Shown: positions 39,786 to 62,505, counted from the stretch's first letter. The stretch is DNA of 64,000 nucleotides from a bacterium BMS3Abin14 (GCA_002897695.1 BDTG01000033.1:1-64000), one strand, 5' to 3'. Numbers and translations are program-made. The notes: generated by a model not told the origin, from the sequence alone.

Positions 39786-40016
39786 CTAATCGAGGAAAAC
39801 CTTGTTTCTCTCATCAAGGCTCATCCCAAGAGCGATGATAATCTTCCTCTTTGTATCCATGCGGCAGGGGAGTCCCCTTTCGATCCGGTCCACCGTCGGG
39901 ACCGACACCTCCGCGCGACGGGCTAGCTCCGCCTTGGAGATCATCATAGCCTCCCTCAGCTTCCGGACGTTATTGTCCCTGCTGTCCCTCTGTCGACCTT
40001 TTTTTGTTTTCTCCAT
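39786..40016 (-). CDS. Small XRE-type HTH regulator at the head of the pil operon
   Basis: 76 residues from the ATG giving MEKTKKGRQRD, with GAGGAAA at good spacing; a longer frame to 40196 runs through the promoter and was not used. A Cro/C1-type helix-turn-helix occupies most of the protein (VRKLREAMMISKAELARRAEVSVPTVDRIERG). Small HTH genes stand at this position before pilM in related bacteria. It probably regulates its own operon, whose promoter carries a dyad. Confidence 0.85.
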   Translation of the reverse strand: MEKTKKGRQRDSRDNNVRKLREAMMISKAELARRAEVSVPTVDRIERGLPCRMDTKRKIIIALGMSLDERNKVFLD

Positions 40017-40167
40017 GTCTTTCCTCAACCGCCACTTATGACAACCTGGTATCCGGTGTGACAACCCGGCAAAAAGCCCCTCTTCCCTGATCCGGTGTCC
40101 CTTAAAAACAGTTTCAAAAAACAACAAATTCTTTAAAATATGTGCAAACTTGCTAAAATTTGTATAA

Positions 40168-40196
40168 ACTATGAAAGACAAAACTTGCTTTGTCAA
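40168..40196 (-). promoter_or_regulatory. Promoter and dyad operator of the HTH-pilMNOPQ operon
   Basis: Minus strand: TTGACA (40191-40196), 17-bp spacer, CATAGT (40168-40173). A perfect dyad GACAAA-N6-TTTGTC (40178-40195) covers the -35 element and spacer. The leader to the HTH start is about 145 nt and carries two copies of GGTTGTCA. Confidence 0.65.
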
Positions 40197-40439: not shown

Positions 40440-40572
40440 TTGACAGGGTCGCAAAAAGTCCATTCGTGGCATTTTGCTCAACGGAAAGCGAAAAGTGTCA
40501 TTTTCACTTTCCTCACAAATCTTCGATGCGCCCCATACGGGGCGCATTGATGACTTTTTGCAAAGTCATCAA
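40440..40572. repeat. Dispersed palindromic element, full-length copy
   Basis: 133 bp with related inverted ends (TTGACAGGGTCGCAAAAAG and TTTTTGCAAAGTCATCAA). It contains the hairpin ATGCGCCCC-ATAC-GGGGCGCAT (40526-40547) and the perfect palindrome TTGATGACTTT-TTGC-AAAGTCATCAA (40547-40572). Shorter relatives lie at 31201-31249 and 57478-57512. It has no coding capacity; a MITE-like or REP-like element is likely. It may also terminate the pilX transcript. Confidence 0.75.
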
Positions 40573-40607: not shown

Positions 40608-42419
40608 TTAATACACCCTTCTCCACTCGCGGTTTTTGAAGGATAGAATCGATTGATTTCCGGGCATGTACTGGGGAAGATAGCTTTTCAGGGCCGGTGC
40701 CTGAAATACAGCCGGTGCCTGGAACCAGGGAAATACAAACGGTAACCAGTCGAACCTGAATTTACCGCCGATGAGAGTTCCGGCTATCTGGGCATGGTGC
40801 CCGATCTTAATCTCACCGGGTGTATAGAACATACCCGAAACCAGAGCCATATTCCACGGTATGCCCCTGATCTGGATCTCCTGTCCGGAGATAAACCCTA
40901 TACTGTTCGTATTGCTCCCGCCTTTGAGATAGCCGCCGTTGTCTGGAATGAAATTAGCCATTATCTCGACTTTCTTGTGAGCAACGACAAGTGCTGCCTG
41001 TTCATCCTGGTTTGGCGGGGCCACAGGATTGCCGAATCCATCGTCCACAAACGCTCCCTTGGAGACATAAGTTACATTTCTGCCGATCCCGATCTTAAAC
41101 CGATCATCCGCATAGACCGTCCCGCTGACCGTAACGACATGGGTGGCGGATTCGTATGTAACGCCGTTCCCCAGGCTGTCAACACACTGGAAACTGGGAG
41201 TACATAATTTGATCTCGAGCTGTCCTAAATCGCCGCCATGGAAACCACAGTCCAGCTTTGCAGGTTCACAGCCGGCAAGCCAATTACTGTCCAGAACGAC
41301 TCCCTTGGAGGTTATAGTACCTGAGGGAACTGTACTGGCGTATGTAGCGCCGGCCGCGAAACCATTAACGCCCCTGATGAGATCCTTGTAGATCGCCATG
41401 GCTCTTTCAGTTTTATCACCGATCCCTGAATATGCCGGATCGGCAGAGACGCCCGGATACTCTGATTCCAGACCGTCCAGAATACCGGGCATGGCAACGT
41501 TGGGAACTTCCGCGCCGACATTGTCGGCGAAGTAGGGTTTATTGCTGCTGAAATTACCATCGACCTGTATATCACTCACAGCGCCGTTGGTATTGCTTGT
41601 ACCTATGTGGGCATTTCCCCTGAGCTTGAGATCAGCGCCTTTAACTCTCACCTTGGCATTAAGATCTGTAACGCTTGGTATCATTGCTTCTAGAACCGGA
41701 TTTATACCAGCATCTGTGTAATTATTGGCTATGGCCGAACTTCCACCGAGTTCCATAAAACCCTGGGAGTATATCGACCCTGAGACATTAATTCTTCCGG
41801 TTACCAGTCCGAACCAGGGGAAATGAATAGTACGACCTCTAAGCCCTGTGCCGGAAAAAATAGCGTTGTTGTAAGGGGAGTTGTCCTCTGTGGCGAGGTG
41901 GTATTCAAGAGCGGCAGTGCCATTAGGTCCATTGGCATACGACATCAGGTAGACCTCGTCGTTGCTGGGCGAATATATGTAGAGTTCGTACGTGGAGTTG
42001 CCCAGGGATGTGCCACCGTTCGTGAAGGTCAGCTTCCTCATCTGGGAGGCGGAATCACCGTCAAGGTACATATCCATGGAGCGGACATTTACATCGAAAG
42101 CGGTTGAGCCGTTTACATAAGTGGCAGTCACACTACCTGCAGATGCCGGGAAGTTGAGGTTTCCCCACGGTCCACCGCTGGTGACGTCACCTTCCATGTC
42201 GGCCACCAGTACCTTGAGACCGCGATCCAGGCCCGCTTCTGCCGTATAGAACACCTGGCTTGCAACCTTCTGGTTTGCTGCCATCTTGATCTCCACGATG
42301 GACGTATTTAGAGCCAGCGTTCCCAGGATGGTGAGTACTGTGATTATGAAGAGGGCGGTTATAAGCGCCGCTCCCTTCTGGGACCTGGGATTTGGAAATG
42401 ATCTATTTTCAGTTAACAT
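40608..42419 (-). CDS. Large PilX-like minor pilin
   Basis: About 603 residues from the ATG with GGAGG eight bases upstream. The N terminus carries a prepilin-type leader ending RSQKG, followed by the hydrophobic helix AALITALFIITVLTILGTLAL of the PilX family, which lacks the Glu5 found in major pilins. The long C-terminal part is rich in Gly/Asn/Ser with beta-strand repeats (SGTITSKGVVLDSNW, KVRVKGADLKLRGNAHIG) and a few Cys, resembling polymer-forming beta-helical domains. It is much larger than classical PilX (about 200 residues). A sigma54 promoter and upstream palindrome lie in front of it. Confidence 0.85.
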   Translation of the reverse strand: MLTENRSFPNPRSQKGAALITALFIITVLTILGTLALNTSIVEIKMAANQKVASQVFYTAEAGLDRGLKVLVADMEGDVTSGGPWGNLNFPASAGSVTATYVNGSTAFDVNVRSMDMYLDGDSASQMRKLTFTNGGTSLGNSTYELYIYSPSNDEVYLMSYANGPNGTAALEYHLATEDNSPYNNAIFSGTGLRGRTIHFPWFGLVTGRINVSGSIYSQGFMELGGSSAIANNYTDAGINPVLEAMIPSVTDLNAKVRVKGADLKLRGNAHIGTSNTNGAVSDIQVDGNFSSNKPYFADNVGAEVPNVAMPGILDGLESEYPGVSADPAYSGIGDKTERAMAIYKDLIRGVNGFAAGATYASTVPSGTITSKGVVLDSNWLAGCEPAKLDCGFHGGDLGQLEIKLCTPSFQCVDSLGNGVTYESATHVVTVSGTVYADDRFKIGIGRNVTYVSKGAFVDDGFGNPVAPPNQDEQAALVVAHKKVEIMANFIPDNGGYLKGGSNTNSIGFISGQEIQIRGIPWNMALVSGMFYTPGEIKIGHHAQIAGTLIGGKFRFDWLPFVFPWFQAPAVFQAPALKSYLPQYMPGNQSILSFKNREWRRVY

Positions 42420-42451: not shown

Positions 42452-42466
42452 GCAAGAGACGTTCCA
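42452..42466 (-). promoter_or_regulatory. Sigma54 promoter of the pilX-like gene
   Basis: Minus strand TGGAACGTCTCTTGC, with GG and GC separated by exactly 10 bp; it differs from the consensus TGGCACG-N4-TTGC only by A for C. The predicted transcript starts near 42440, about 20 bases before the start codon. Confidence 0.8.
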
Positions 42467-42512
42467 TCCACAGATGTCCACTGTATGCTGTTTTCGCCCC
42501 CTTTGATGCATG

Positions 42513-42535
42513 AACTGTGAATTTTTTTCATAGTT
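42513..42535. promoter_or_regulatory. Enhancer-like palindrome upstream of the pilX sigma54 promoter
   Basis: AACTGTGAA-TTTTT-TTCATAGTT: nine-base arms with one mismatch around a five-T centre. The centre (42524) lies 58 bp upstream of the first base of the -24 element. The same palindrome with the same spacing occurs before the fimT-like gene. Confidence 0.75.
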
Positions 42536-42586
42536 CGGTTTTACTTTTTTTATTTCATCGCTTTCATGACCAGCTCGGCCTCAATT

Positions 42587-45500
42587 TCAGGGCAATGTCT
42601 GGGTGTTGGAATCATCGTCTATTGTGAAGTTGGTATGACATCCTGAATCGGTGTTTTCCACATCCAGCCGTACGCTGTTACCCGTCCCCAGGGAAATTTC
42701 CGAGGGCTGGAATGTGTGGACATAGCTGAAATTGCCGGGGGCAGATGTAGTTACTGAATCGCTATAGGATTGGGAATTTTCCAGGTTTGTAACGGTTATC
42801 GCCATATTCCCGGTGACAGGTGTGGCCGTACCGGTGCTTGATAGCTGAAACAATGTACCATCGAACTGAACCCGATAGCGAGATGGTATAGGCTTGTCCC
42901 AGACAACCGTCCCGAGCGTCGCGACCCTGTTGCAGATCTCGAAGGGAATTTCCGCCGTGCTGAAGCTGTTTTCAGCATGGTCGCTCACCCTGGCCTTGAT
43001 AGAGTGTGGACCGTTGGTGGGAGCGGAACGGGTGTCGACCGTGAAGCTCGCGGTAGTGGTTGCCACCGCCGATGCGAGAGAGAAATTCCGGGTCGAGGAG
43101 AATACCGCCGAGGCGGAGGAATCAAAGACCGAATATCCGGTGCTGGCAAGGAAACCGATATTGGAATCAGCGCTGTATGGGACGGATACCACGCTTGTCG
43201 CGAAACCGGAGCCGGGTGTTGACGAGGCGATAGTGGGAACACCATTGTCCACATAGAAATGATAACTCTGGGTCATGGCGTTGATATTTTCATTATATGC
43301 CAGATCGCGGCCCTTGATATAGATCGCATATGCCCCGCCAGGCCAGGGGGTTGTTGTTGTGGGAATCAGCCCGTCAGTCTCCCATGTGAATGCCATCGCC
43401 GGATTGGTTGCGACATTAAAAGTGGTACTGACAGTTCCCAGGGGGTTATCCTTGCTTATAAAATAGATAAACCCGCTACCGGCGAAACTGTCGTTGACCC
43501 GGCTGCTTAACGTTACTGTCCCTTTCACGAAGGGTCCGTAGGCCGGATTCACGGAACCGTAGGACGAACTCACCACAGGTGCATCCACCGTTGGATCAAT
43601 GTTATCAACATAAAAAGCCAGCGAGCCCGTTCCAAGGTTGCCCGGGGAGGGCAGAGATGAATCGTAGGCCTTCACGCTCCACGTATACGAGGTATCCTCG
43701 ACAGCGCTTCCCGGCCCGGCCCAGCTGAAGGAATAGGAGGCAACGTTGACCTGATTTACGGGATCCCACGTACTGCCCCCGAACTGCGTCGGCTGATCGA
43801 TGAAACCTCCGGTTCCGTTGACGGACACCAGGACCGTGTTGGAGGAATCGGCGAAGCCGGAAGCATCGCTTACCTCGAAGTATCCCCAGTAATTGAAGCT
43901 ACTTACCCACTCACCGGATGTACTGGTTGGACTCACAACGGGCGCTGTATGGTCCACAATGGCCGACCAGGTTGCCGAGTCCGTATTGCCCTGGCTGTCC
44001 TGCACAGTGGCGATCATTGTCTTTTGTCCCGTCCCCTCCAGCGAGGTATCCCAGCTGTAGGCATAGGCATCTCCCCCCAGATCGGTAAGGGTTCTGTAGG
44101 TTGTTCCGATCTTGAGTGTCACCGAGTAGCTCGGGTTAATGGTATCAAAAACCGCCGTCTGAAGGCCCACATCGACCGTCGTGCTGTTCCAGACAGAGTT
44201 GTTTGCGGGTGCGGTGAACCAGATCGTGTTGCCCGGGTTCGTCACGGTTACCGAAATCGAAGCGCTGGTGTTCCAGTTGCCTGCCCCGTCCCGGGCCCTG
44301 ACGTACAACGTGTGCGTGCCGTTCAGCCAGTACGGAACGCCGCCCGATTCAGTTACCCATGAATAAGTATTCGTTCCGGTCAGGTCCGTTCCGGTCCACG
44401 TTTTGACAAGATACGTATCGATGTACAGATCGACCTGGGTTATGGCCGGATTAATAGTGTTGTTTGTATCTTCCGCGTAGACATCGATATCCACAGCGTC
44501 GGAAACCGAGGAACCGTCCGCAGGCGCGGTTATACTGACCTCCGGCAGATCCCCATCCTCTATCAGGAAGGATGCGGTATCAATGGGACTACCTGCCGGA
44601 TAGGAGACCGTTATCGTCTTGGGCGTGTACGGCAGGTAAAGCTCATTGGCCAGGGGTATGGACCCGGACTCTGAAAGGAGGATGTTATCCTGACCGTATG
44701 CGATTATGTCGGGGATGAACACACCGGTATCCAGAAACTCTCTCAGCGTTACCGTCTCGGTCTCGCCCCCGCTTCCCGACGAGTCCAGGGCCGTGACCAG
44801 TTCAGTGCTGATAGAAGAGTCCGACTCGAACCTGGGTATGTATACCTTGGGCCTCATCCTGTCGTTGTTGTACATATTGAGAATCTGGGTACCTCCGGAA
44901 AGTATAGGGCTCTCGGTGCCATCCCCGTTATCTTTGTAGAGCTTCAGCCACCTGGGACCGGAGATGAACACATCCCATGTATACTCCGTGGCGGGCGCGG
45001 GATCATCGTTATCGACATACTTCATCGTAACCCTGTCGCCGTAATCCACCTGGAGCTTGGAGTCGCCGGGGGTAGCTACTGTATTCAGCTCTGTCATGAT
45101 GCCCGGGGCGAAACGGAAGACGGCCGAGTTCGCGCCTGTCTCTCTAATCTCGAAGTTCTCGACATCCCCGGTGAGTTCACTCTGCAAAGTTACGGATACG
45201 GGGGGAGGGGATATGGCGTCGACCTGGAAAACGTGCTCATTTTCGTCGCAGTCTCCCACCTGGACGAAGATGCCGTCTCCCGGATCGTAGTGACGTACAG
45301 CTTCATTTTCGCCCTTCTTGGCAGAGTAGCTGCTGTTGTAGAACCCGCTGCCCGCGTTGGGCTCGCTTACCAGCATCGGCACCTGTACCGACGCTGTCTG
45401 GGGATAGATCTGTCCATCCACATCGGCATCGGCGGCGACTGTAAGGATCTGGTCCTTCATTGCCGAACCCGGGTTCAGCGCGGCATACGCATACCCAAAA

Positions 45501-47632
45501 GCGTCCGTGCTGGTGGTAGTCGTATCCTGGGTAAGATCCGTATGGTTGAAGGATCCGTTACCCAGAATGGGCGAACTTCCGGTTACCGTGAAGGTGACGG
45601 GGTATGAATCGGTGACCGACCCTTCCGGGCGCACTATATTTACACATTCGTCCACCACAGGGTCGTACTCCTGGAGGACCGCTGACACGTCCACCTCATC
45701 GGATGTACAGCCGGCAGTGAGGCCGAAGGGGCTGGTGCCCTTGGTAACGCTCAGGTTAAGGATCGGTTCGAGGCTGGCAAAGAGGTTGAACTCTATTGTC
45801 TCGGTACCCAGGGCAGTTGTGATCCCGGAGTCGGTTATTACCATATTCTGGTCGCTGATGGCGGGACCGCATCCGAGGGGGGAGTACCAATCGAAGGTGT
45901 ACGTACCGTCGGCCTCGGCGACAACCGCAGTTGCAGCCCCATAGCTCGGGGTGATTGTGAGGTTGCTCTCCTGGCCGAAGACCCTGTTGCCGCAGGCGTC
46001 CACAACGGAGAAGTTGATCAGAACGTGCTGGTTGCTGACCCGCTCCATATTGAAGGAGTTGCTGGTCGGGCTGGCGAACTGGTAGAGGTAACTTCCTCCC
46101 CCGTCCTTCGGGCCCTCGATGGAGTTTATGACCATATCGTAGGCTGAGCCGGGTGTGAGTGTAAGGGTGCGCGTGTTTGACGAAGTAGACCACTGTGCGG
46201 CTATATCCACTGTCTCGGAGGCTGCTCCGGTAGTTATTGTATCTGGAGGTATGTAAACCACGCTGTAGGTCCCGTCACCGTTATCCTGCGTCCCGGTCTG
46301 GAAGGTGCCCTTGCCGGTTGGATCGATAGAATAATCCACCGTCTCGCCCTCAATGCCGTTGTCGCAGTCGTCCTCGACGCGAACCTTCAATTTCGCGCCG
46401 ACGTTGCTGGCTGCTGAACACAACGGCAGACTGGATGGCTGTGGAGATATATTGGTACCCGTGTCCAGGAGGACATACTCGAGGTCGAGGACGTTGATAT
46501 CATAGGGCGCAAGCGTATCAAACCGCGAGGGTGTGCCGCTCGTTACAGTAAGAGTTTCTGTGTGGGAAAGCTGGAGGCATCCGGCCTCCGGAGGCGTAAA
46601 GTAAGCGCTCACCGTAACCTGCGTTCCCTCAGCGGTTACGGCGGTTGGGCTTGCACCCAGGTAAACACTGCCTGCACCGTTGGACCTTCCGGTTATAACG
46701 CTCCGCTCGGTTCCCCCCGAATCCGCGAATATATAATCGTAATCCGCAGAGATGGACACGGGGGTATTGTTATCCGGATTACCGTCAGGATCAACGACCG
46801 TAACGGTCAGGAGGGGATTATCGGTCAGGGTCTGCGTGCCGGTGGCAAGCTCATCCTGCTGGTCGGAACATGAAGAATACTCACCGCTTGCACCGGGATA
46901 GGCGACATCCATGGTGAAGGAGGAACAGCTCCCCGTTCCGACTCCTCCGGAAGCGACCGTCACGTCCTCTACATTTCTGGTCCTGATGTCGACAACCGCG
47001 GACCTCCTTCTGAAATTGTCCCCTTTCGTAGGGTTAGTGTAGTTCAAGTCGGGCCTCGATGATTTTACTACAATCGTCGAACGGATGCGTCTGATGGTGG
47101 CCAGCGCATTGTCATTAGTGGGACTGACGGCTGGATTCAATGGAGATATTTGGGTTAACTGAGCGCCGAATCCGTCAAAGTACGAGAAAGTCAGTGAATC
47201 GACGTCATTGGCAAGGATCTTCAGGTTGTTGTCGTTCTGGACCGCGGCCAGTGTGGTTTCCACCGCCCTCATTATCCTTTCGTTGGTAGCGTCGAAGGTG
47301 TACCTGACGAAGCTGTCCGTCCCGCCCGTATTGGGGAGGTTGGCCTTGTAGATTATCTGTGTGGTGCCGGCGTAACGAATTGCAAGGTTGGGTACACCGT
47401 AACCCAACCAGGACATCTCCTGGTTCAGGAACTCGGTGGTGGCCCGGAGGTTCTCCTGCATCCCGGCCACCTGCTCCTGGGTCCGGAACATGCCCTCCTG
47501 AGAGATAAATACCCTGTATATGGCGGTCAGGAGAACTCCCATTATCAGAAGGGCGATCATGAGCTCGATTAGAGTGAACCCCCCTCTGTTCTTTTTCCTG
47601 TCTTCCACTGAGTGGATCGCCGTAAATCTCAT
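42587..47632 (-). CDS. Giant PilW-like prepilin fused to a long Ig-like region
   Basis: 1681 residues. A prepilin leader ends RGG, with cleavage before FTLIELMIALLIMGVLL and Glu at mature position 5. Residues 19 to about 225 correspond to a PilW-type minor pilin (AGMQENLRATTEFLNQEMSWLGYG). The remaining 1450 residues are secreted beta-sandwich material: cysteine-rich segments (about 235-900), then clear Ig-like units such as VSITAPADGSSVSDAVDIDVYAED, each followed by LNGTHTLYVRARDGAGNW-type strands, to about 1600. Classical PilW is about 250-350 residues. It probably forms a tip adhesin built into the pilus. It lies between the pilV-like and pilX-like genes; the base composition matches its neighbours. 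Confidence 0.9.
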   Translation of the reverse strand: MRFTAIHSVEDRKKNRGGFTLIELMIALLIMGVLLTAIYRVFISQEGMFRTQEQVAGMQENLRATTEFLNQEMSWLGYGVPNLAIRYAGTTQIIYKANLPNTGGTDSFVRYTFDATNERIMRAVETTLAAVQNDNNLKILANDVDSLTFSYFDGFGAQLTQISPLNPAVSPTNDNALATIRRIRSTIVVKSSRPDLNYTNPTKGDNFRRRSAVVDIRTRNVEDVTVASGGVGTGSCSSFTMDVAYPGASGEYSSCSDQQDELATGTQTLTDNPLLTVTVVDPDGNPDNNTPVSISADYDYIFADSGGTERSVITGRSNGAGSVYLGASPTAVTAEGTQVTVSAYFTPPEAGCLQLSHTETLTVTSGTPSRFDTLAPYDINVLDLEYVLLDTGTNISPQPSSLPLCSAASNVGAKLKVRVEDDCDNGIEGETVDYSIDPTGKGTFQTGTQDNGDGTYSVVYIPPDTITTGAASETVDIAAQWSTSSNTRTLTLTPGSAYDMVINSIEGPKDGGGSYLYQFASPTSNSFNMERVSNQHVLINFSVVDACGNRVFGQESNLTITPSYGAATAVVAEADGTYTFDWYSPLGCGPAISDQNMVITDSGITTALGTETIEFNLFASLEPILNLSVTKGTSPFGLTAGCTSDEVDVSAVLQEYDPVVDECVNIVRPEGSVTDSYPVTFTVTGSSPILGNGSFNHTDLTQDTTTTSTDAFGYAYAALNPGSAMKDQILTVAADADVDGQIYPQTASVQVPMLVSEPNAGSGFYNSSYSAKKGENEAVRHYDPGDGIFVQVGDCDENEHVFQVDAISPPPVSVTLQSELTGDVENFEIRETGANSAVFRFAPGIMTELNTVATPGDSKLQVDYGDRVTMKYVDNDDPAPATEYTWDVFISGPRWLKLYKDNGDGTESPILSGGTQILNMYNNDRMRPKVYIPRFESDSSISTELVTALDSSGSGGETETVTLREFLDTGVFIPDIIAYGQDNILLSESGSIPLANELYLPYTPKTITVSYPAGSPIDTASFLIEDGDLPEVSITAPADGSSVSDAVDIDVYAEDTNNTINPAITQVDLYIDTYLVKTWTGTDLTGTNTYSWVTESGGVPYWLNGTHTLYVRARDGAGNWNTSASISVTVTNPGNTIWFTAPANNSVWNSTTVDVGLQTAVFDTINPSYSVTLKIGTTYRTLTDLGGDAYAYSWDTSLEGTGQKTMIATVQDSQGNTDSATWSAIVDHTAPVVSPTSTSGEWVSSFNYWGYFEVSDASGFADSSNTVLVSVNGTGGFIDQPTQFGGSTWDPVNQVNVASYSFSWAGPGSAVEDTSYTWSVKAYDSSLPSPGNLGTGSLAFYVDNIDPTVDAPVVSSSYGSVNPAYGPFVKGTVTLSSRVNDSFAGSGFIYFISKDNPLGTVSTTFNVATNPAMAFTWETDGLIPTTTTPWPGGAYAIYIKGRDLAYNENINAMTQSYHFYVDNGVPTIASSTPGSGFATSVVSVPYSADSNIGFLASTGYSVFDSSASAVFSSTRNFSLASAVATTTASFTVDTRSAPTNGPHSIKARVSDHAENSFSTAEIPFEICNRVATLGTVVWDKPIPSRYRVQFDGTLFQLSSTGTATPVTGNMAITVTNLENSQSYSDSVTTSAPGNFSYVHTFQPSEISLGTGNSVRLDVENTDSGCHTNFTIDDDSNTQTLP

Positions 47633-47651
47633 GGCCTTCCTCCTTGAAGGA

Positions 47652-48167
47652 TCACTGATAGTAGTCCAGGTTCTTACGCGCTATCTGTGTTTCCAGCACC
47701 ACGGAGCGGGGAGTCGACCCTTCGTTCCAGCTGACCCTGACCCGGACTGTCTTGATATTGGCATCCGGCATATTGTCCACAACGTTCCACTCACGGGTGA
47801 ACATCCCCCCCGGCGTTCCGTCCTCAGCAAGGAGCGCACCGTCCGCGTGATCCGGATTTGTCCAGTCGCCGAGGTCGTTCCCGCTGTCAGGGTCCACCAG
47901 GTCGGTATCAACAATCTCGGCACCGCCCGCGGTGGGAATATAATATTCCCTCAGTTTCTTGAGCTCCTCGATCTTGTTCCTGGCAAGGTTCACCGCAGAG
48001 GACATGTGCCTCGCAGTGGCATTGCCGAAACCGCTTTGCATCTGAAGCCTGACTATTCCCAGGAGCCCGATGGCGAGGATCATCATGGCAATGAGAAGCT
48101 CTATAAGGGTGAAACCCCTATCCTTTGCAATAACGTGATTATATTTTTCTTTATTTATCCTTTTCAT
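47652..48167 (-). CDS. pilV: PilV-like minor pilin
   Basis: 171 residues from the ATG overlapping the fimT-like stop (ATGA). The leader ends KDRG, with cleavage before FTLIELLIAMMILAIGLLGIVRLQ. The body contains ARHMSSAVNLARNKIEELKKL, typical of PilV. Minor pilins of this type prime pilus assembly and sit at the tip. An ATG seven codons upstream is possible. Confidence 0.9.
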   Translation of the reverse strand: MKRINKEKYNHVIAKDRGFTLIELLIAMMILAIGLLGIVRLQMQSGFGNATARHMSSAVNLARNKIEELKKLREYYIPTAGGAEIVDTDLVDPDSGNDLGDWTNPDHADGALLAEDGTPGGMFTREWNVVDNMPDANIKTVRVRVSWNEGSTPRSVVLETQIARKNLDYYQ

Positions 48168-48805
48168 TGCCAGCTTCCCCCTGACCATTGATAGGTCTTG
48201 ACTCGGCCCGTAATACCTATGGAAATCGCAAACCCCTGATCCCTGGTGTTCTTCAGAAAAATGATTACCGAATTCGTGGGACTTCTAATTGACGCGAGAT
48301 CAACTACGGGAAGACCGGTGGGCCTGAACCCTATATTGTTCTTGCCGGACATGCCGACTCCGGCAACGAATACACCATCGGTGTCGCCGCCGGGCGTAAC
48401 GCCGTCAGGGCCGCTGCCGCCATAGGATGAGGGCCACCCGAAGGAGACGCCATCAGGCAGCAGAAAACCCGGCGTTCCTCCAAAAGTATCCGGCATATCC
48501 ATCCCCGCCTCGGTATATTCACCCGGTGCGTCAATGGCGGAATCAGCATCCTCATCCACGAATCCAGTGAAAAAATTGTTCGATGTGTTAACCACCAACC
48601 AGGCGCTCCTGTTTTTCGCTATAGCCCTCATTTTTACGAGCTGGAGGGAGGCGGCGATCTTGTTCGTCGCTCCCCTTAACCTGTACGCAGGCAGCTCGGC
48701 CAGGAAGTTGTAGACTCCCACAGCCGTGAGAATTCCGATGATGGCCACCACCAGCATGAGCTCAATAAGAGTCAGGCCGCTTTCACTGCTTATTCTTCCA
48801 TTCAT
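48164..48805 (-). CDS. fimT: FimT/GspH-like minor pilin
   Basis: 213 residues from the ATG eight bases after GGAG. The leader ends SESG, followed by LTLIELMLVVAIIGILTAVGVYNF. The GspH domain includes AASLQLVKMRAIAKNRSAWLVV. First gene of the minor-pilin unit FimT-PilV-giant PilW and preceded by a sigma54 promoter and the enhancer-like palindrome. FimT proteins are minor pilins; some bind DNA during natural transformation, which cannot be judged here. Confidence 0.88.
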   Translation of the reverse strand: MNGRISSESGLTLIELMLVVAIIGILTAVGVYNFLAELPAYRLRGATNKIAASLQLVKMRAIAKNRSAWLVVNTSNNFFTGFVDEDADSAIDAPGEYTEAGMDMPDTFGGTPGFLLPDGVSFGWPSSYGGSGPDGVTPGGDTDGVFVAGVGMSGKNNIGFRPTGLPVVDLASIRSPTNSVIIFLKNTRDQGFAISIGITGRVKTYQWSGGSWQ

Positions 48806-48830
48806 ACCCATATCTCCAGTTCGTAGTTAA

Positions 48831-48845
48831 GCAAAAGGTATTCCA
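48831..48845 (-). promoter_or_regulatory. Sigma54 promoter of the fimT-pilV-pilW unit
   Basis: Minus strand TGGAATACCTTTTGC with GG-N10-GC spacing and intact TTGC. The predicted transcript starts about 14 bases before the fimT start codon, which leaves the GGAG ribosome site just inside the 5' end. Confidence 0.7.
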
Positions 48846-48893
48846 CACCCTGATGCCCATTTTGCGCAGGTCACCAGATATACTAAGGACAAA

Positions 48894-48912
48894 CTATGAA
48901 TTTTTTTCATAG
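48894..48912. promoter_or_regulatory. Enhancer-like palindrome upstream of fimT and behind the response regulator gene
   Basis: A perfect CTATGAA-TTTTT-TTCATAG palindrome. Its centre (48903) is 58 bp upstream of the -24 element, the same distance as for the pilX copy. It begins 21 bp after the stop of the sigma54-dependent response regulator gene. Confidence 0.78.
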
Positions 48913-48933
48913 ATATATATAATAATTTTCAGA

Positions 48934-50307
48934 CTACTTGGGTATCTGTATTCCGTAATCCTTGATCTTGTATAGCAACGCCCTGTGACTGATCTCCAGC
49001 AGACGGGCCGCCTTGCTCCTGTTGTACATGGTCTTCTGCAGTGCCCTTATTATCAACCGTCGCTCAAGATGACGGGTTGCTTTCTTGATGGACTGTTCAT
49101 CCGAGGCATCCTCATCCACAAACCGGTCCTCAACACCCGTCAGGAGGGGAGCTATCTGTTCCTCACCCAGCTCGCTGGAACCCGATAGAATTGCAGCCCG
49201 TTCGAGAAGGTTCTCCAGGTCCCTGACGTTGCCCGGCCATGGATAGCCAAGAAGGACCTTTATGGCCCCTGGTAAAAGCACCAGAGAGGCACCACCCAAC
49301 CTCTGTGATATCTGCCCCAGGAGGTATTCCGCAAGGGGCTTTATATCCTCTCTCCTTTCCCGCAGCGGGGGGATATGGATCGGTACGACGCTCAACCTGT
49401 AGTACAGGTCCTCCCTGAATTTACCCTCCCTGACGGCCTTTTCCAGATCCACCGCCGTAGCGGCAATGATCCGTGGATTGACCTTTATCGAAGTGCTCTC
49501 GCCCACCCGCCGGATCTCTCCCTCCTGAATGGCCCGAAGAAACTTCACCTGCATATCCAGAGGAAGATCGCCGATCTCGTCCAGGAAGAGGGTGCCCTCG
49601 CCGGCCTCCTCGAACAGTCCTGTCCTGTCCGACGTCGCATCGGTAAAGGCGCCCCTGACATGCCCGAAGAATTCACTCTCCATCAGTGTAGGAGGTACAG
49701 CTCCGCAGTTAACACCGACGAAAGGCCCGTCCTTTCTCAGGCTGAGATTGTGGACGGCTCTTGCCAGGACCTCCTTGCCGGTCCCGCTCTCTCCGGTTAT
49801 GAGGACGTGGCTCTGGTATTCGGCGACTTTTTTAACCATATCGAGGATCTTGACCATTGCCGGGCTCCTGACGACAAAACTCTCCAACGAGTATTTTTCC
49901 TCGATCTGTTCCCTCAGAATGATATTTTCCCTGCGCAGGCTCTCCCGCTCCTGCGCCTTCCTGAGAGTCAGCAATATCTCATCGGGCTTGAAAGGTTTGC
50001 TGATGTAATCGTAAGCACCCTGCTTCACTGCTTTCACCGCAAGATCTACAGTCCCGAAGGCGGACATCATTATCACTGTCGTATCCGGATACTGGGATCT
50101 GATAGTGGAAAGGACCTGCAGCCCGTCCATGCCGGGCATTCTCACGTCACACAGTACGAGATCGAAGGGCCTCTCTCCCAGTAGCCGGAGAGCCTCTTCA
50201 CCGCTGGAAGCGCCGCTTGCATCGAACTGTTCCTTCTGAAGAAGGACCGTTATCATGTTCCTGACGCTGTTTTCATCATCCACTACCAGGACTTTTTTGA
50301 GTTCCAT
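48934..50307 (-). CDS. NtrC-type sigma54 response regulator with GAFTDA loop
   Basis: 457 residues. A receiver domain (1-120, VVDDENSVR, phosphoacceptor Asp in DLVLCDVRMPGMDG, KPF), a sigma54-activation AAA domain (about 145-375) with Walker A GESGTGKE and Walker B GTLFLDEIGDLP, and a C-terminal Fis-type HTH (NRSKAARLLEISHRALLYKIKDYG). The loop that contacts sigma54, normally GAFTGA, reads GAFTDA. It overlaps its histidine kinase gene by 32 bases and reads towards the fimT unit, whose upstream palindrome follows the stop codon. I infer it activates the minor-pilin promoters. Confidence 0.93.
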   Translation of the reverse strand: MELKKVLVVDDENSVRNMITVLLQKEQFDASGASSGEEALRLLGERPFDLVLCDVRMPGMDGLQVLSTIRSQYPDTTVIMMSAFGTVDLAVKAVKQGAYDYISKPFKPDEILLTLRKAQERESLRRENIILREQIEEKYSLESFVVRSPAMVKILDMVKKVAEYQSHVLITGESGTGKEVLARAVHNLSLRKDGPFVGVNCGAVPPTLMESEFFGHVRGAFTDATSDRTGLFEEAGEGTLFLDEIGDLPLDMQVKFLRAIQEGEIRRVGESTSIKVNPRIIAATAVDLEKAVREGKFREDLYYRLSVVPIHIPPLRERREDIKPLAEYLLGQISQRLGGASLVLLPGAIKVLLGYPWPGNVRDLENLLERAAILSGSSELGEEQIAPLLTGVEDRFVDEDASDEQSIKKATRHLERRLIIRALQKTMYNRSKAARLLEISHRALLYKIKDYGIQIPK

Positions 50308-51973
50308 GGTCTTCCCTTTCCGTTACATTACCGTGAGTTTCTATCGGAAGGTCGATAATCAGTTCCGTTCCCTTTCCTTCTTCGCTCTTTGCCCATACCC
50401 TGCCGCGGTGAGCCTGGATTATCCCGAAGGTGATGGACAGGCCGAGACCGGTCCCCTCGCCAGGCTCCTTGGTGGAGAAGAAAGGATCGAAGATCCGGCC
50501 AAGCTGATCCGCGGGTATTCCCGGTCCGGAATCCCTGACGCTGATACTAACCACAAGGTCCCCCTCTCCCATCTGACGGTTTCCCGGAATATCCTGTCTC
50601 AGGGCGAGGAAGTCGCTGTCCCTCCTGTCCACCGCCCGCCTCCTTGACACCACACCCTCACCTTTTTGCAATTTTCTCAGTGAGGATGCCACCGTCAGCT
50701 CCCCCATGCCGTCCATCGCCTGAGCACCGTTCACAAAGACGTTGATAAGTGCCTGGCACAGGAGGTTCCGGTCCCCTCGTACTGTGGGCAGATCCTCAGT
50801 GAAAGCAAGCTCTATGCTGACATTCCTGAATATATCCTGGGGGCGTACCAGATCCAGTGTCGATTGCACAATAGTGTTGACATCAAGCTCTTCAATCTCA
50901 GCTTCACCGGGCCTGGAAAAATCCAGGAGCCCTCTGATGATACGCTGGATCCTTTCCGTTTCCTTTTCTATGTATCCGAGATACTCTCTTTCCTCTTCGT
51001 CTCGGGCATCCTTCAGCAGAATGGACGCATAACCGAGGATGGCGCTCAGGGGATTTCCGATCTCGTGGGCGATACCGGCTGAAAAGCGTCCTACCGATGC
51101 CAGTTTTTCGCTTCTCATCGCCTCCTGCTGGGCGGCCCGCAGATCTCTGTTTGCTTTCTGAAGCGCCTCAAGGTGTTCCTCCTGCTTCTGTACGGCTGAT
51201 TCTATCTTCTCCGCCATGGAGTTGAAAGATTCTGAAAGGGCAACAATCTCCCTCGGCCCCTTGACCTTCACACGTGAGCTGTAATCACCTGCCGCCAGCG
51301 CGGCAGCGCCCTCGGAGATCCTCACCAGGGGCCTGATGGCCACCCGTCCGATCATCCAGCTACCGAAAAGGATGATAACAAAAGCATCGGCCAGGGCGAA
51401 GGACAGGATGATCTTCCTGTGTACCCTGAAGGTAACTCCGACGTTTTCCATCGGGTAGCTGATGCTGAATGCTCCCACCAGTTTCTCCCCTGAAAACAGT
51501 GGCGACGAGAAGGACCATGAGCCGGCAGGCCGGTACGCTTTCTGTCCGGAGAACTCTTCGGACATTACCATGCGGCGAAGGTTGAGGGCCCTTTCCAGGC
51601 CGGGATCGGTTGATACTGTGCCGATGCTTTCCGATCTGGTGTTCGCGATGATCCTGCCGTCGGCGTCTGCGATGACAAGATCCGAAAGCCCCATCCCCTC
51701 CACCATGCGGCTGACCATGGAGTTGAGATAGTCCGGATTCCGGGCGCCCTCATCCCAGGCCAGGGCGATAGTCTCCTTGACCGACCGGGTGATCTGCGTC
51801 AGAGATTCCACCTCCTGGATGACGACGGCCCGCTCAGCCGCCTTCAGAGCCGTAATTCCCATAAAAGCCACTCCTCCGAACATGAGGAGTCCCAGGCTCA
51901 CCAGTATCTCCCAGCGAAGGCCCCGCTGCCTTCTGGTAAACAGCGCTTTCAGATGATTCGCCCCAGGTACCAA
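50276..51973 (-). CDS. Membrane histidine kinase of the minor-pilin regulator
   Basis: 565 residues starting at TTG with AAGGAG at 8-bp spacing. Two transmembrane helices (about 22-42 and 194-216) enclose a periplasmic sensor domain of about 150 residues; HAMP follows (about 217-270), then a coiled coil, HisKA with the phosphoacceptor in GIAHEIGNPLSAI, and HATPase with N-box, DSGPGIP and GTGLGLSI. An insertion of about 35 residues lies between the N and G1 boxes. The gene overlaps pilD and the response regulator gene, forming pilD-kinase-regulator. Confidence 0.93.
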   Translation of the reverse strand: MVPGANHLKALFTRRQRGLRWEILVSLGLLMFGGVAFMGITALKAAERAVVIQEVESLTQITRSVKETIALAWDEGARNPDYLNSMVSRMVEGMGLSDLVIADADGRIIANTRSESIGTVSTDPGLERALNLRRMVMSEEFSGQKAYRPAGSWSFSSPLFSGEKLVGAFSISYPMENVGVTFRVHRKIILSFALADAFVIILFGSWMIGRVAIRPLVRISEGAAALAAGDYSSRVKVKGPREIVALSESFNSMAEKIESAVQKQEEHLEALQKANRDLRAAQQEAMRSEKLASVGRFSAGIAHEIGNPLSAILGYASILLKDARDEEEREYLGYIEKETERIQRIIRGLLDFSRPGEAEIEELDVNTIVQSTLDLVRPQDIFRNVSIELAFTEDLPTVRGDRNLLCQALINVFVNGAQAMDGMGELTVASSLRKLQKGEGVVSRRRAVDRRDSDFLALRQDIPGNRQMGEGDLVVSISVRDSGPGIPADQLGRIFDPFFSTKEPGEGTGLGLSITFGIIQAHRGRVWAKSEEGKGTELIIDLPIETHGNVTEREDHGTQKSPGSG

Positions 51974-56265: not shown

Positions 56266-57462
56266 CTATCCGTTTCGCCCCTTTCCCCTGGACAACAGGC
56301 GATAATATTCCTCAATTTTCTCCTGGGTTCGTCGGAAATCGAAGAACTCGTGGACACGCCGGGAGCCTCTTTTCCCCCACTCCCGGGCCTCCTCTCCCAT
56401 TTTCATGACCCTCTCCATGGCCCCCGCGAGGGCCGATGGGTCCGAGGGAGGGACAATAAAACCGGTGCGCCCCTCTTCCACCATACCAGGCACGTTCCCC
56501 ACCCTTGTCGCCACCACTGGCAGCCCGGCCGCCATGGCCTCGAGAACGGCGAGAGGGCTTCTTTCGGACAGGGAGGAAAGGACGAAAAAGTCGGAGGCCC
56601 TATAGATATCCTCCACATCCTCCCGTATTCCCAACAGGCTGACACTGCCGGAAAGCCCCGTCCGGGAGATGGCAGAGCTTATTCTTTCTCTTTCAGGGCC
56701 ATCGCCCACTATCAACAGGAAAGGCCTTTCTCCACGGGTTTTCATAAGCCCGAAAGCCTCGATCAGGACAGGAAAACCTTTTTCCGGAATCAACCGTCCG
56801 ACCGAGACCCAGACCACGGCATCATCGGGAATATCGAGGGCGGCTCTCAGTACTCTTCGGTCCCGTTTCAGTTCCTCGTTGATCTCAACTCCATACGGGA
56901 AAACCTCCCGGGTCGGCCTCCAGAAAAATTCAGGCGCCACCAGATTGTCTGAAGGTAGAGAAAAAACAATCTCGGCGGCGGCCATTGGGCCGGTTACCGA
57001 ACAGGCCAGACGCCGGAAGATGGATTCATGCTCATGATGAATGGTGTTAAGCACGTGCAGTTCCCTGCCGGAAAGCCCTATAAGGCGGACCCCCATGAGG
57101 CGAGCAAGGATGTTTGAATGGAACATATGCCCCTGAAGGACCTCCGGATCAAATTCTTTCGCAATGGAAAAAAGGCTCCGAAGCCCGGAAACGGAAAGCC
57201 TTCCCCTCCTCTGTCCTAACTCGAACACAGGGACATCCTCGCACCGGATGGCATGGGCGAACCCGCCGCCGGACATCAAAGAGACAACCCCCACCCGAAA
57301 CCTCGACCGGTCATGATAGCGTGCCATCCAGACGAGCATCCGCTCCGCCCCTCCAACGGTGAGTCCGCTGATGATGTGAAGCACCCCTATCCGGTCGTCC
57401 GTGGGATCGAGTTTACCAATTGACGGCAAGCCGTCACCCCTCCTATACTCGCAGCTAAGCAT
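56266..57462 (-). CDS. Glycosyltransferase, GT4 family
   Basis: 398 residues: GVLHIISGLTVGGAERMLVWMARYH at the N terminus, VSVGRLIPEKGFPVLIEAF at the start of the second domain, and SSLSERSPLAVLEAMAAGLPVVAT at the donor site. It begins the minus-strand run GT4-WecA-FAD-GT4-PilD-kinase-regulator. Its start lies 60-80 bp from the third copy of the enhancer-like palindrome. Confidence 0.9.
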   Translation of the reverse strand: MLSCEYRRGDGLPSIGKLDPTDDRIGVLHIISGLTVGGAERMLVWMARYHDRSRFRVGVVSLMSGGGFAHAIRCEDVPVFELGQRRGRLSVSGLRSLFSIAKEFDPEVLQGHMFHSNILARLMGVRLIGLSGRELHVLNTIHHEHESIFRRLACSVTGPMAAAEIVFSLPSDNLVAPEFFWRPTREVFPYGVEINEELKRDRRVLRAALDIPDDAVVWVSVGRLIPEKGFPVLIEAFGLMKTRGERPFLLIVGDGPERERISSAISRTGLSGSVSLLGIREDVEDIYRASDFFVLSSLSERSPLAVLEAMAAGLPVVATRVGNVPGMVEEGRTGFIVPPSDPSALAGAMERVMKMGEEAREWGKRGSRRVHEFFDFRRTQEKIEEYYRLLSRGKGRNG

Positions 57463-57477
57463 ACCAGATCTGATCTT

Positions 57478-57512
57478 GTCGCAAAAAGTCCATTCGTGGC
57501 TTTTTGCTCAAC
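57478..57512. repeat. Partial copy of the dispersed element
   Basis: 35 bp, identical at 34 positions to 40448-40482 within the 133-bp element. Only the left-hand part is present; the hairpin part is missing. It lies in the divergent intergenic region between the two glycosyltransferases. Confidence 0.85.
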
Positions 57513-57522
57513 ATATCTCTTG

Positions 57523-57541
57523 CTATGAATTTTTTTCATAC
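57523..57541. promoter_or_regulatory. Third copy of the enhancer-like palindrome
   Basis: CTATGAA-TTTTT-TTCATAC, 18 of 19 bases identical to the copy at 48894-48912. It sits between divergent glycosyltransferase genes. No GG-N10-GC sigma54 element lies at the 58-bp distance on either strand. Confidence 0.6.
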
Positions 57542-57614
57542 TATATCTGTATACGGCAGGAATTCAAGCACCATTTAGCCGGACTATGGCCGCATGAGGA
57601 TAGAAAGGACCCGG

Positions 57615-58577
57615 ATGGCTTTTTTCCCTGCAAGCAGAAGGATCACCGGGGAGATCCGGACGTTTTTGAGCTCCCCCCGTTTTTCCACCGGTTCTCCACC
57701 TCCCCAGGATTCCGCATGGCCCAGGATTTCCGTCATAACCCCGTCCTTCAACCAGGTGGAATTTCTCGAACGCACCATCATCTCAGTCCACAATCAGGAA
57801 TATCCCAACTTTGAGCACATCGTCATCGACGGCGGTTCGACGGATGGAAGCGTTGACATCATCAAGCGCTACGGGAAGGTCCTGAAATACTGGCACAGCC
57901 GGCCGGACCGGGGCCAGTGCGACGCCATCAATATGGGAGCGGACATCGCCACCGGCCGCTTCATGACATGGATCAACTCTGACGATCTCCTGCTGCCTGG
58001 GGCGCTGATGAAGGTGGGGACCGTTATCCGCGACAACCCCGGCCTTGATCTCGTCTACGGAAACCAGGTTGAGATCGACCGAAACGATGTTGTTACCAAA
58101 CGGGTGTTCACGGTGGATTTCGACATTTATGACTTCCTCTATGAGGTAAACATCATCATAAAACAGCAGTCGGCCTTCTGGAACGCGGATCTGTTTGAGC
58201 GGATCGGCGGCCTTAATGACTGTCCATACGCCATGGATTATGACCTTTTCTACAGGATGTTCGGGCAGGGGATGCGATACCGCCGCCTGGACGATTTTCT
58301 CTCGGCCTTCCGGGTCTACCCTGAGTCCCTGACAGGCTCAGGGGAGGTGAACAGATCCCGGGGCGATACGGTGGATACCATCTTCGCGGATTACCTGGGA
58401 AGAGAAAGAGGCCTGCTGGACAGAACGGTAATAAAGGCCTGGTATAAAACCAGGCGTTTTGCGAAAGAACCCAGGGCGTTTGCCGCGGCCCTGGAACACA
58501 GGTTGGGTCGCCTGTCGGGGAGATTGCGAAAAACCGCCCGGCGCTTAAAGGTTCATTCAAGCAGCTCCGATTCATAG
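57615..58577 (+). CDS. Glycosyltransferase, GT2 family
   Basis: About 320 residues of a GT-A fold enzyme. ISVITPSFNQVEFLERTIISV, IDGGSTDGSVDII, and the DXD-like metal motif in TWINSDDLLLPGAL are typical. A further conserved segment is PYAMDYDLFYRM. I chose the ATG with AAAGGA at 5-bp spacing; an ATG 21 bases upstream is the alternative. It is the only plus-strand gene of the glycan cluster and converges with the O-ligase gene (six-base overlap of ends). Confidence 0.88.
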   Translation: MAFFPASRRITGEIRTFLSSPRFSTGSPPPQDSAWPRISVITPSFNQVEFLERTIISVHNQEYPNFEHIVIDGGSTDGSVDIIKRYGKVLKYWHSRPDRGQCDAINMGADIATGRFMTWINSDDLLLPGALMKVGTVIRDNPGLDLVYGNQVEIDRNDVVTKRVFTVDFDIYDFLYEVNIIIKQQSAFWNADLFERIGGLNDCPYAMDYDLFYRMFGQGMRYRRLDDFLSAFRVYPESLTGSGEVNRSRGDTVDTIFADYLGRERGLLDRTVIKAWYKTRRFAKEPRAFAAALEHRLGRLSGRLRKTARRLKVHSSSSDS

Positions 58578-61116: not shown

Positions 61117-62505
61117 TCACTCCTCCGCCATGCCGTACTTTTTCAGACGGTACCGGAGGGACCGGAAACTCACGCCCAGGAGCTCGGCCGCCCTGGTCCT
61201 GTTTCCTCCTGCCTGATTAAGGGCTTTCTCTATAATCTGTCTTTCGTACCGCTCCAGGAGGGTGTCAAGCTGGGCCGTTTCGAGCGGCAGAACATCCGAT
61301 AGCCGGGGCATCGTGTCCCTCCGCCCGACCTCCGGCGGCAGCAGGTCCGCGCCGATGATGTCCCCTGTGGCAAGGGCCACCCCGCGCTCGACTATGTTCT
61401 CGAGCTCGCGGACATTGCCCGGGTAGTTGTAGGACATGAGAGCCTTCATGGCGTCCTGGGAAAAAGCGGGGACCTGTCTTTCCTGGCGGTCGCAGAGAGC
61501 TTCAAGGAAATGGTCAACGAGCAGGGGGATATCCTCCTTCCTGTCACGCAGGGGAGGAACCTCTATATGGATTACGTTCAACCTGTAAAACAGGTCCTCC
61601 CGGAAACGGCCCTCCCTGACTTCATTTGTCAGATCCCGGTTGGTCGCCACCAGGATGCGCAGGTCCACCTTGACCGGGCGCGTATCCCCGACAGGGACTA
61701 CCTCCCGTTCCTGAATGGCCCTGAGCAGTTTAACCTGAAAGGCGGAGGATGTTTCGGTGATCTCATCGAGGAACAGGGTTCCGCCGGCGGCTGTCGCAAA
61801 AAGACCTTTCCTGTCCGTATCCGCACCCGTAAAGGCGCCTTTTCTGTGCCCGAAGAGCTCGCTTTCCAGAAGGGTTTCCACCAGGGCTCCGCAGTTCACA
61901 GTTACGAAAAGCCCTTTTCTCTCCTTGCCGTGGTAATGAAGCGCCCGTGCGATGAGTTCCTTCCCTGTGCCGCTCTCCCCCGATATGACCACCGTGGTGT
62001 CCATATCGCTGACCCTTTCGATGACATCGAAAACCCTTCGCATGCACTCGCTTTTGCCCACGATGCTCTCAAAGCCGAAGCGTGCCTCAAGCAGTTTCTG
62101 GAGCTCGACGTTCTCCTCGGCAAGCCGCCGCCTCTCGATGGCCGCGCTGATTCTCGCCTTTATCTCCTCGATACGGAACGGTTTCGTGATGTAATCCTCG
62201 GCTCCAAGCTTCATGGCCTCCACCGCCGAGTCGGGGGAACTGTAGGCTGTGATCATGAGGACCGGCATATCCGGATAATCGCTCCGGGACTGACGAAGGA
62301 AATCGAAACCGGACAGCCCCGGCATGTTGATATCGGTGATGGACAGATCGAAGGGCCCTTCCCTTTTCAGGGCATCCAGGGCATCTCCGGCCGAGGAGCA
62401 GCATTGGACCGAATAACCTTCCCTGCCCAGGAAGATCTCCAACATGTCGCGCATGCTCCTTTCATCGTCGATAACCAGCACATGTCCCTTTTTCTTTTTG
62501 CTCAT
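61117..62505 (-). CDS. pilR: Sigma54-dependent response regulator PilR
   Basis: About 462 residues from the ATG overlapping the pilS stop (ATGA), with GGAG six bases upstream. The receiver domain has DDERSMRD and the phosphoacceptor Asp in DLSITDINMPGLSG. The AAA domain contains GESGTGKE, an intact GAFTGA loop (RKGAFTGADTDRKG) and GTLFLDEITE. The C-terminal Fis-type HTH reads GGNRTRAAELLGVSFRSLRYRLKKYG. It activates the adjacent pilA promoter by analogy with Pseudomonas. Confidence 0.95.
   Translation of the reverse strand: MSKKKKGHVLVIDDERSMRDMLEIFLGREGYSVQCCSSAGDALDALKREGPFDLSITDINMPGLSGFDFLRQSRSDYPDMPVLMITAYSSPDSAVEAMKLGAEDYITKPFRIEEIKARISAAIERRRLAEENVELQKLLEARFGFESIVGKSECMRRVFDVIERVSDMDTTVVISGESGTGKELIARALHYHGKERKGLFVTVNCGALVETLLESELFGHRKGAFTGADTDRKGLFATAAGGTLFLDEITETSSAFQVKLLRAIQEREVVPVGDTRPVKVDLRILVATNRDLTNEVREGRFREDLFYRLNVIHIEVPPLRDRKEDIPLLVDHFLEALCDRQERQVPAFSQDAMKALMSYNYPGNVRELENIVERGVALATGDIIGADLLPPEVGRRDTMPRLSDVLPLETAQLDTLLERYERQIIEKALNQAGGNRTRAAELLGVSFRSLRYRLKKYGMAEE

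Follow-up and report, generated by a model that had tools for sequence, protein, structure and literature searches.

Located at the pilus tip, the minor pilins and PilY1 act as primers of pilus assembly. AlgR, a regulator acting on minor-pilin supply in Pseudomonas aeruginosa, is a LytTR-type protein and is not known as a sigma54 activator. The FimS-AlgR system, which acts on the fimU operon (PMC5979040), resembles the system considered here in that a two-component pair controls minor-pilin supply apart from PilSR-pilA, but the output domain of AlgR is not homologous to that of PilR2. In Myxococcus xanthus, the NtrC-like regulator of HsfBA directly binds upstream of minor-pilin/PilY1 clusters (PMC9109919), and in this it is comparable to the regulator proposed below; it is, however, another protein with another regulon (heat shock, secondary metabolism). 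M. xanthus also has the two-component system PilS2R2 (Bretl 2016, as cited in PMC6211767 and PMC11841059). Pilus-dependent motility requires this system (PMC6211767), through a route reported to be separate from PilSR, and PilS2R2 controls pilus assembly by a mechanism that was called unknown in 2025 (PMC11841059). Its genes, pilR2S2, sit inside the T4aP cluster of Myxococcaceae (PMC6060248). No binding site or minor-pilin target of PilS2R2 is described in these three papers.

The locus analyzed here lies in a window of 64,000 nucleotides from bacterium BMS3Abin14 (genome G000, 2.28 Mb). A kinase-regulator pair is located within the pil cluster of the window, next to a set of minor-pilin genes:

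50276-51973, minus strand: sensor histidine kinase in the PilS2 position, with HAMP, HisKA and HATPase domains (Pfam)
48934-50307, minus strand: EBP2, response regulator and putative PilR2 ortholog (Pfam PF00072, PF00158, PF02954; tree; synteny)
48164-48811, minus strand: fimT, GspH/FimT-type minor pilin
47652-48188, minus strand: pilV-like minor pilin
42587-47632, minus strand: 1681-aa protein with a prepilin N-terminus and a bacterial Ig domain, in the pilW/pilY1 position
40608-42419, minus strand: pilX-like gene with a PilX_N domain, an ATG start and a GGAGGTG ribosome site

The 1681-aa protein is possibly a pilin-adhesin fusion that replaces PilW and PilY1. A small gene encoding a Cro/C1-type HTH protein (39786-40196) lies between pilX and pilMNOPQ, and its sigma70-like promoter, TTGACA-N17-CATAGT, contains a TTCATAG half-site.

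Relation of EBP2 to PilR2 and AtoC

EBP2 consists of a receiver, a sigma54-activator AAA+ domain and a Fis-type HTH (Pfam), the architecture of a sigma54 enhancer-binding protein (EBP). Its recognition helix reads EISHRALLYKIKDYGI, and its AAA+ loop is GAFTDA, a variant that keeps activity (PMC4641369). GAFTDA was found in 67 of the 73 PilR2-clade loci counted, some of them redundant, and most other EBPs read carry GAFTGA. In a tree of 39 EBPs, all 23 proteins with the recognition helix form one clade (100/99), separate from the PilR rows; the clade includes the Myxococcaceae rows L135 and L139, with M. xanthus PilR2 itself outside the tree. The order pilD-kinase-regulator is found in the window and in distant genomes, and the Myxococcaceae loci L135, L136 and L139 show the order kinase-regulator-pilM-pilN. 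Because the clade is common with Myxococcaceae and the synteny there matches pilR2S2, EBP2 is taken to be the PilR2 of a PilS2R2 system, in a clade apart from PilR; like PilS2R2 of M. xanthus, it forms with its kinase a pair inside the pil cluster that is separate from PilSR. The Myxococcaceae loci read differ from the window in that minor pilins are not adjacent and the dyad described below was not found. A search for the dyad at the GC-rich Myxococcota orthologs of PilR2, which also lack adjacent minor pilins, was likewise negative.

The experimentally known recognition closest to that of PilR2 is, judged by the protein and its sites, that of AtoC from Escherichia coli. The two recognition helices are very similar (ISRRALMYKLQEYGI in AtoC, ISHRALLYKIKDYGI in PilR2). 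The verified AtoC sites, GCTATGCAGAAATTTGCACA and GCTATGCAGAAAATTGCGCA, lie in tandem upstream of a sigma54 promoter and are built on CTATGCA (PMC3118216), which is one of the two half-site forms seen in PilR2 dyads. By contrast, the spacer is 6 bp in AtoC sites and 5 bp in the PilR2 dyad, AtoSC serves acetoacetate catabolism, and AtoC and EBP2 are 43% identical. EBP2 scores 478 bits against the NCBIfam AtoC equivalog, whose cut-off is 714 bits, and is therefore not filed as AtoC despite the similar DNA-contact helix.

Promoters and dyads before pilX and fimT

Both pilX and the fimT-pilV-pilW/Y1 operon are preceded by a GG-N10-GC element with a conserved dyad upstream, the arrangement of a sigma54 promoter with an activating site:

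42452-42466 (read 42466-42452), minus strand: sigma54 promoter of pilX, TGGAACGTCTCTTGC, a GG-N10-GC element
42515-42533, minus strand: site A, proposed PilR2 site for pilX, CTATGAA-AAAAA-TTCACAG
42537-42555, minus strand: weaker, A-rich copy 22 bp upstream of site A
48831-48845 (read 48845-48831), minus strand: sigma54 promoter of the fimT-pilV-pilW/Y1 operon, TGGAATACCTTTTGC, kept in seven family orthologs
48894-48912, minus strand: site B, proposed PilR2 site for fimT, CTATGAA-AAAAA-TTCATAG, a perfect dyad
48916-48934, minus strand: weaker second dyad with TGAAAATTATT core, 22 bp upstream of site B

The initial annotation of this DNA had reported these promoters, each with an identical palindrome upstream at the same distance, and had judged chance an unlikely cause. 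The promoters and dyads are present as reported. The dyad centres lie at 42524 (A) and 48903 (B), each 58 bp from the first base of the -24 element, which bears out the equal phase, and 68 bp separate the first dyad base from the GG of the sigma54 element at both. The palindromes are not identical: site A (CTGTGAATTTTTTTCATAG on the plus strand, CTATGAAAAAAATTCACAG on the coding strand of pilX) has one arm mismatch, site B (CTATGAATTTTTTTCATAG; CTATGAAAAAAATTCATAG on the coding strand of fimT) has none, and the two agree at 18 of 19 positions.

Pattern searches of the 2.28-Mb genome for CTATGAA-N5-TTCATAG with at most two mismatches returned three matches, which are A, B and a third site, C, all within 15 kb of window sequence. 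From base composition, about 0.004 exact dyads and 0.19 dyads with at most one mismatch are expected genome-wide. At three mismatches the window alone holds four matches for 1.5 expected, a weak excess by itself, so that the case depends mainly on the genome-wide and comparative counts. Together with the conserved spacing of 67-69 bp described below, they confirm that the dyad is real and far from chance, as had been argued. One additional composite match (G000:C1:3468) has a different spacing and no second arm, and was treated as a chance match.

The source genome was compared with 11 relatives from its own family; most of the genomes compared in this work are MAGs. EBP2 orthologs (70-88% identity) occur in six of the 11, always directly upstream of fimT. 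All seven fimT promoters contain a TGG...TTGC sigma54 element with CTATGMAAA 67-69 bp upstream; the distance between dyad and promoter is fixed, although regulator and fimT lie 124 to 384 bp apart, depending on the genome. G000, G006 and G008 are the only genomes with a separate sigma54 promoter for pilX, and at pilX the dyad is found in just these three, at 67-68 bp, so that the 67-69 bp spacing holds in 10/10 orthologous promoters from seven genomes. The initial annotation had expected its palindrome to recur in related genomes, and it does so strongly, in these ten promoters and in distant loci too. Because the right arm is degenerate in most relatives, strict conservation is limited to the left arm, the A-tract and the distance. 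The copy 22 bp upstream scores 5.6 of 8 over the 10 family sites against a background of 2.07 (sd 0.60); it was sought in distant lineages and was absent there, and is therefore claimed for the source family only.

The composite promoter accompanies EBP2 in all seven family genomes that yielded the regulator and is absent from the remaining five (p 0.0013); as a background, the composite pattern occurs in 21 of 374 genomes outside the family. L126 was left out of the counts because its promoter is identical and it is apparently the same species as G011. As the compared genomes are kin, the Fisher p values given here overstate independence. Since the fimT genes and the site are neighbours, their co-occurrence with the regulator is partly linkage; the pilX site, and sites located 0.6-1.2 kb from the regulator (L127, L244, L245), disfavour linkage alone.

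Conservation extends to distant genomes. Searches for the exact palindrome in two partly overlapping sets of 247 and 393 genomes gave 18 distinct sites, 10 of which lie upstream of sigma54 promoters that serve minor-pilin operons; wherever the contig is long enough, the gene order there is the same. The recognition helix EISHRALLYKIK is encoded in 44 of the 393 genomes. Thirty helix-bearing loci were read, 26 with a readable downstream sigma54 element, and in 20 of these 26 the dyad CTATGMA-N5-TKCATAG, with at most one mismatch, precedes the minor-pilin promoter; no dinucleotide shuffle scored as well as these 20 loci. The spacing to the sigma54 element is mostly 70-73 bp, and the half-sites take the forms GAA or GCA on the left and TTC or TGC on the right. 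Two of the helix loci (L269, L273) retain the left arm only. In six of the distant loci that were read over a longer stretch (L225, L240-L243, L248), the bases CTATGA of the left arm double as the last codon (Leu) and the stop of pilR2; there the arm is partly constrained by coding, and independent evidence comes from the remainder of the dyad only. The Myxococcota-assigned MAG L127 has a regulator of 55% identity, the order pilD-kinase-regulator-fimT, and a perfect dyad, CTATGAAAAAAGTTCATAG, which occurs once in its 4.1 Mb and lies 125 bp before the sigma54 element of fimT. Among the 393 genomes, the exact palindrome is found in 9/44 with the helix and 5/349 without it (p 1.6e-6). In one of these five, G511, the dyad stands at a minor-pilin operon on a contig without the regulator region.

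A third dyad between glycosyltransferase genes

Site C adds a third copy to the two of the initial annotation, and is located between divergent glycosyltransferase genes:

56266-57462, minus strand: GT1, glycosyltransferase group 1
57420-57449, plus strand: sigma70-like promoter TTGACG-N18-TATACT toward GT2, upstream of site C
57523-57541, no strand: site C, CTATGAA-TTTTT-TTCATAC (CTATGAATTTTTTTCATAC)
57540-57567, minus strand: sigma70-like promoter TTGAAT-N16-TATAGT toward GT1, touching site C
57594-58577, plus strand: GT2, glycosyltransferase family 2

A GT2 ortholog with its upstream region was found in seven family genomes, and site C is conserved in every one of them, in two cases with two mismatches. 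No GG-N10-GC element occurs near it in the window, and none is kept across the seven regions. By reading, four relatives have TTGGAA/T-N17-TATACT/TATAGT at the same place as the GT1-directed promoter. Of the genomes at least 90% complete, five have both site C and PilR2 and two have neither (p 0.048, from a small sample). G003 and G009 have site C, and PilR2 was not found in them. Considered as counter-evidence, this absence was traced to assembly gaps: the partner kinase of PilR2 is present in G003 and cut by a 100-N gap, and the pil cluster of G009 is cut likewise. The 100-N joins (L279 13541, L280 3410) interrupt pil genes in both of these apparently single-contig genomes, in which presence/absence calls are unreliable.

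The initial annotation had envisaged a dedicated switch for pilus-tip genes, separate from PilR-pilA. The separation stands, in that PilR has a dyad of its own (see below); the restriction to pilus-tip genes does not, because site C lies near glycosyltransferase genes and has no sigma54 element. EBPs can repress sigma70 promoters that they overlap, which makes repression the likeliest role at site C. PilR2 bound there would probably occupy the sigma70 promoter, and site C may thus mediate repression of the glycosyltransferase gene. That PilR2 activates from site C instead, or that another regulator acts there, could well be the case, though we lean slightly away from it: another sigma70-like promoter is directed at GT2 from a position upstream of the site, but the dyad touches the -10 hexamer of the GT1-directed promoter, which most relatives also have at this position, and this favours occlusion.

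A dispersed intergenic repeat, GAGCAAAAAGCCACGAATGGACTTTTTGCGA, occurs at 40449-40479 and 57479-57509, the latter copy close to site C. Similar sequence is found in intergenic regions of the relatives G001 and G005.

The candidate regulator of the dyad

We hold with considerable confidence that PilS2R2 acts through the dyad as its upstream activating site, and that PilR2 activates fimT and pilX through sigma54 and probably represses at site C. As judged from its set spacing to the promoters of pilus-tip genes and its location beside the PilS2/PilR2 genes, both here and in many distant bacteria, the dyad very probably reveals which genes PilR2 switches on. The initial annotation had named the adjacent response regulator as the binder; this candidate is backed by co-occurrence, synteny, the invariant helix, the separate PilR dyad and the likeness to AtoC sites. 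Upstream of fimT-pilV-pilW/Y1 and of pilX, phosphorylated PilR2 would bind CTATGMA-N5-TKCATAG at a distance of about 75-95 bp from the start site, assisted in the source family by the weaker dyad 22 bp further up. Its AAA+ domain would then open sigma54 RNA polymerase at both promoters, and PilR2 would set the supply of the pilus-priming minor-pilin complex independently of PilR, which is predicted to act on pilA through the other dyad.

An unlinked DNA-binding protein might instead read the dyad, with PilR2 a mere neighbour, as the retention of site C in G003 and G009 could suggest. We consider this improbable, since the gaps described above interrupt the clusters of both genomes, distant genomes share the dyad together with the PilR2 helix, and the exact dyad is so rare where the helix is absent. 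Still less probable is binding by PilR (61117-62517), which would coordinate pilA with the minor pilins. PilR, another EBP of this cluster, does occur in G003 and G009, the genomes that have site C and in which PilR2 was not found, but the pilA promoters of six genomes carry another conserved dyad, GTGACR-N5-TGTCAC, the recognition helices of the two proteins differ (SFRSLRYRLKKYG against SHRALLYKIKDYG), and G002, G003 and G009 have PilR-type EBPs before pilA without the composite promoter. PilR was therefore rejected as the binder of the minor-pilin dyad, having its own dyad at pilA. PilSR-pilA is similar to the system proposed here in that an EBP adjoins a pilin promoter of the sigma54 type that has an N5 dyad upstream, and is different in the dyad, the helix and the target, a major pilin rather than minor pilins. 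In the window, GTGACG-TAAAT-TGTCAC precedes TGGCACAGCCTTTGC upstream of pilA (minus strand, ~61100-60950). The pilA regions read in other family genomes contain a similar TGACR-N5-TGTCA dyad, a clean paralog contrast to that of PilR2.

A hairpin in RNA, such as a terminator of the regulator transcript, was rejected as very unlikely. In its favour, the dyad at fimT directly follows the stop codon of the regulator, and site A gave a terminator-like match, but this match and the pil genes are on opposite strands. The stem is rich in A/T, the arm sequence is fixed rather than freely covarying, the right arm degenerates in relatives that retain the left arm and the distance, and the dyad recurs before pilX and between the glycosyltransferases. 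An RNA element or riboswitch was also rejected, the Rfam scan of the window having returned only tRNAs and 6S RNA.

An EBP with a dyad and a sigma54 promoter beside its own gene is a known type of system. What appears to be new, within the literature consulted, is that PilR2 is paired with this dyad and with minor-pilin operons, and part of this may stand in the 2016 study of PilS2R2. In the literature text available on the half-site together with sigma54 and pilin, the only match was in work on Ralstonia rpoN genes.

These results propose a concrete and testable site, promoter and target operon for PilR2. Two paralogous regulators of one cluster with cleanly different dyads are also useful for learning the recognition code of Fis-type proteins. 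Tentatively, and with less confidence than we attach to the binding site itself, PilR2 may be an ancient, dedicated regulator of pilus priming in several bacterial groups, which here also represses glycan synthesis from a sigma70 promoter. If so, a single phospho-signal would trade surface sugar against pilus tips, and the missing mechanism of PilS2R2 would be provided.
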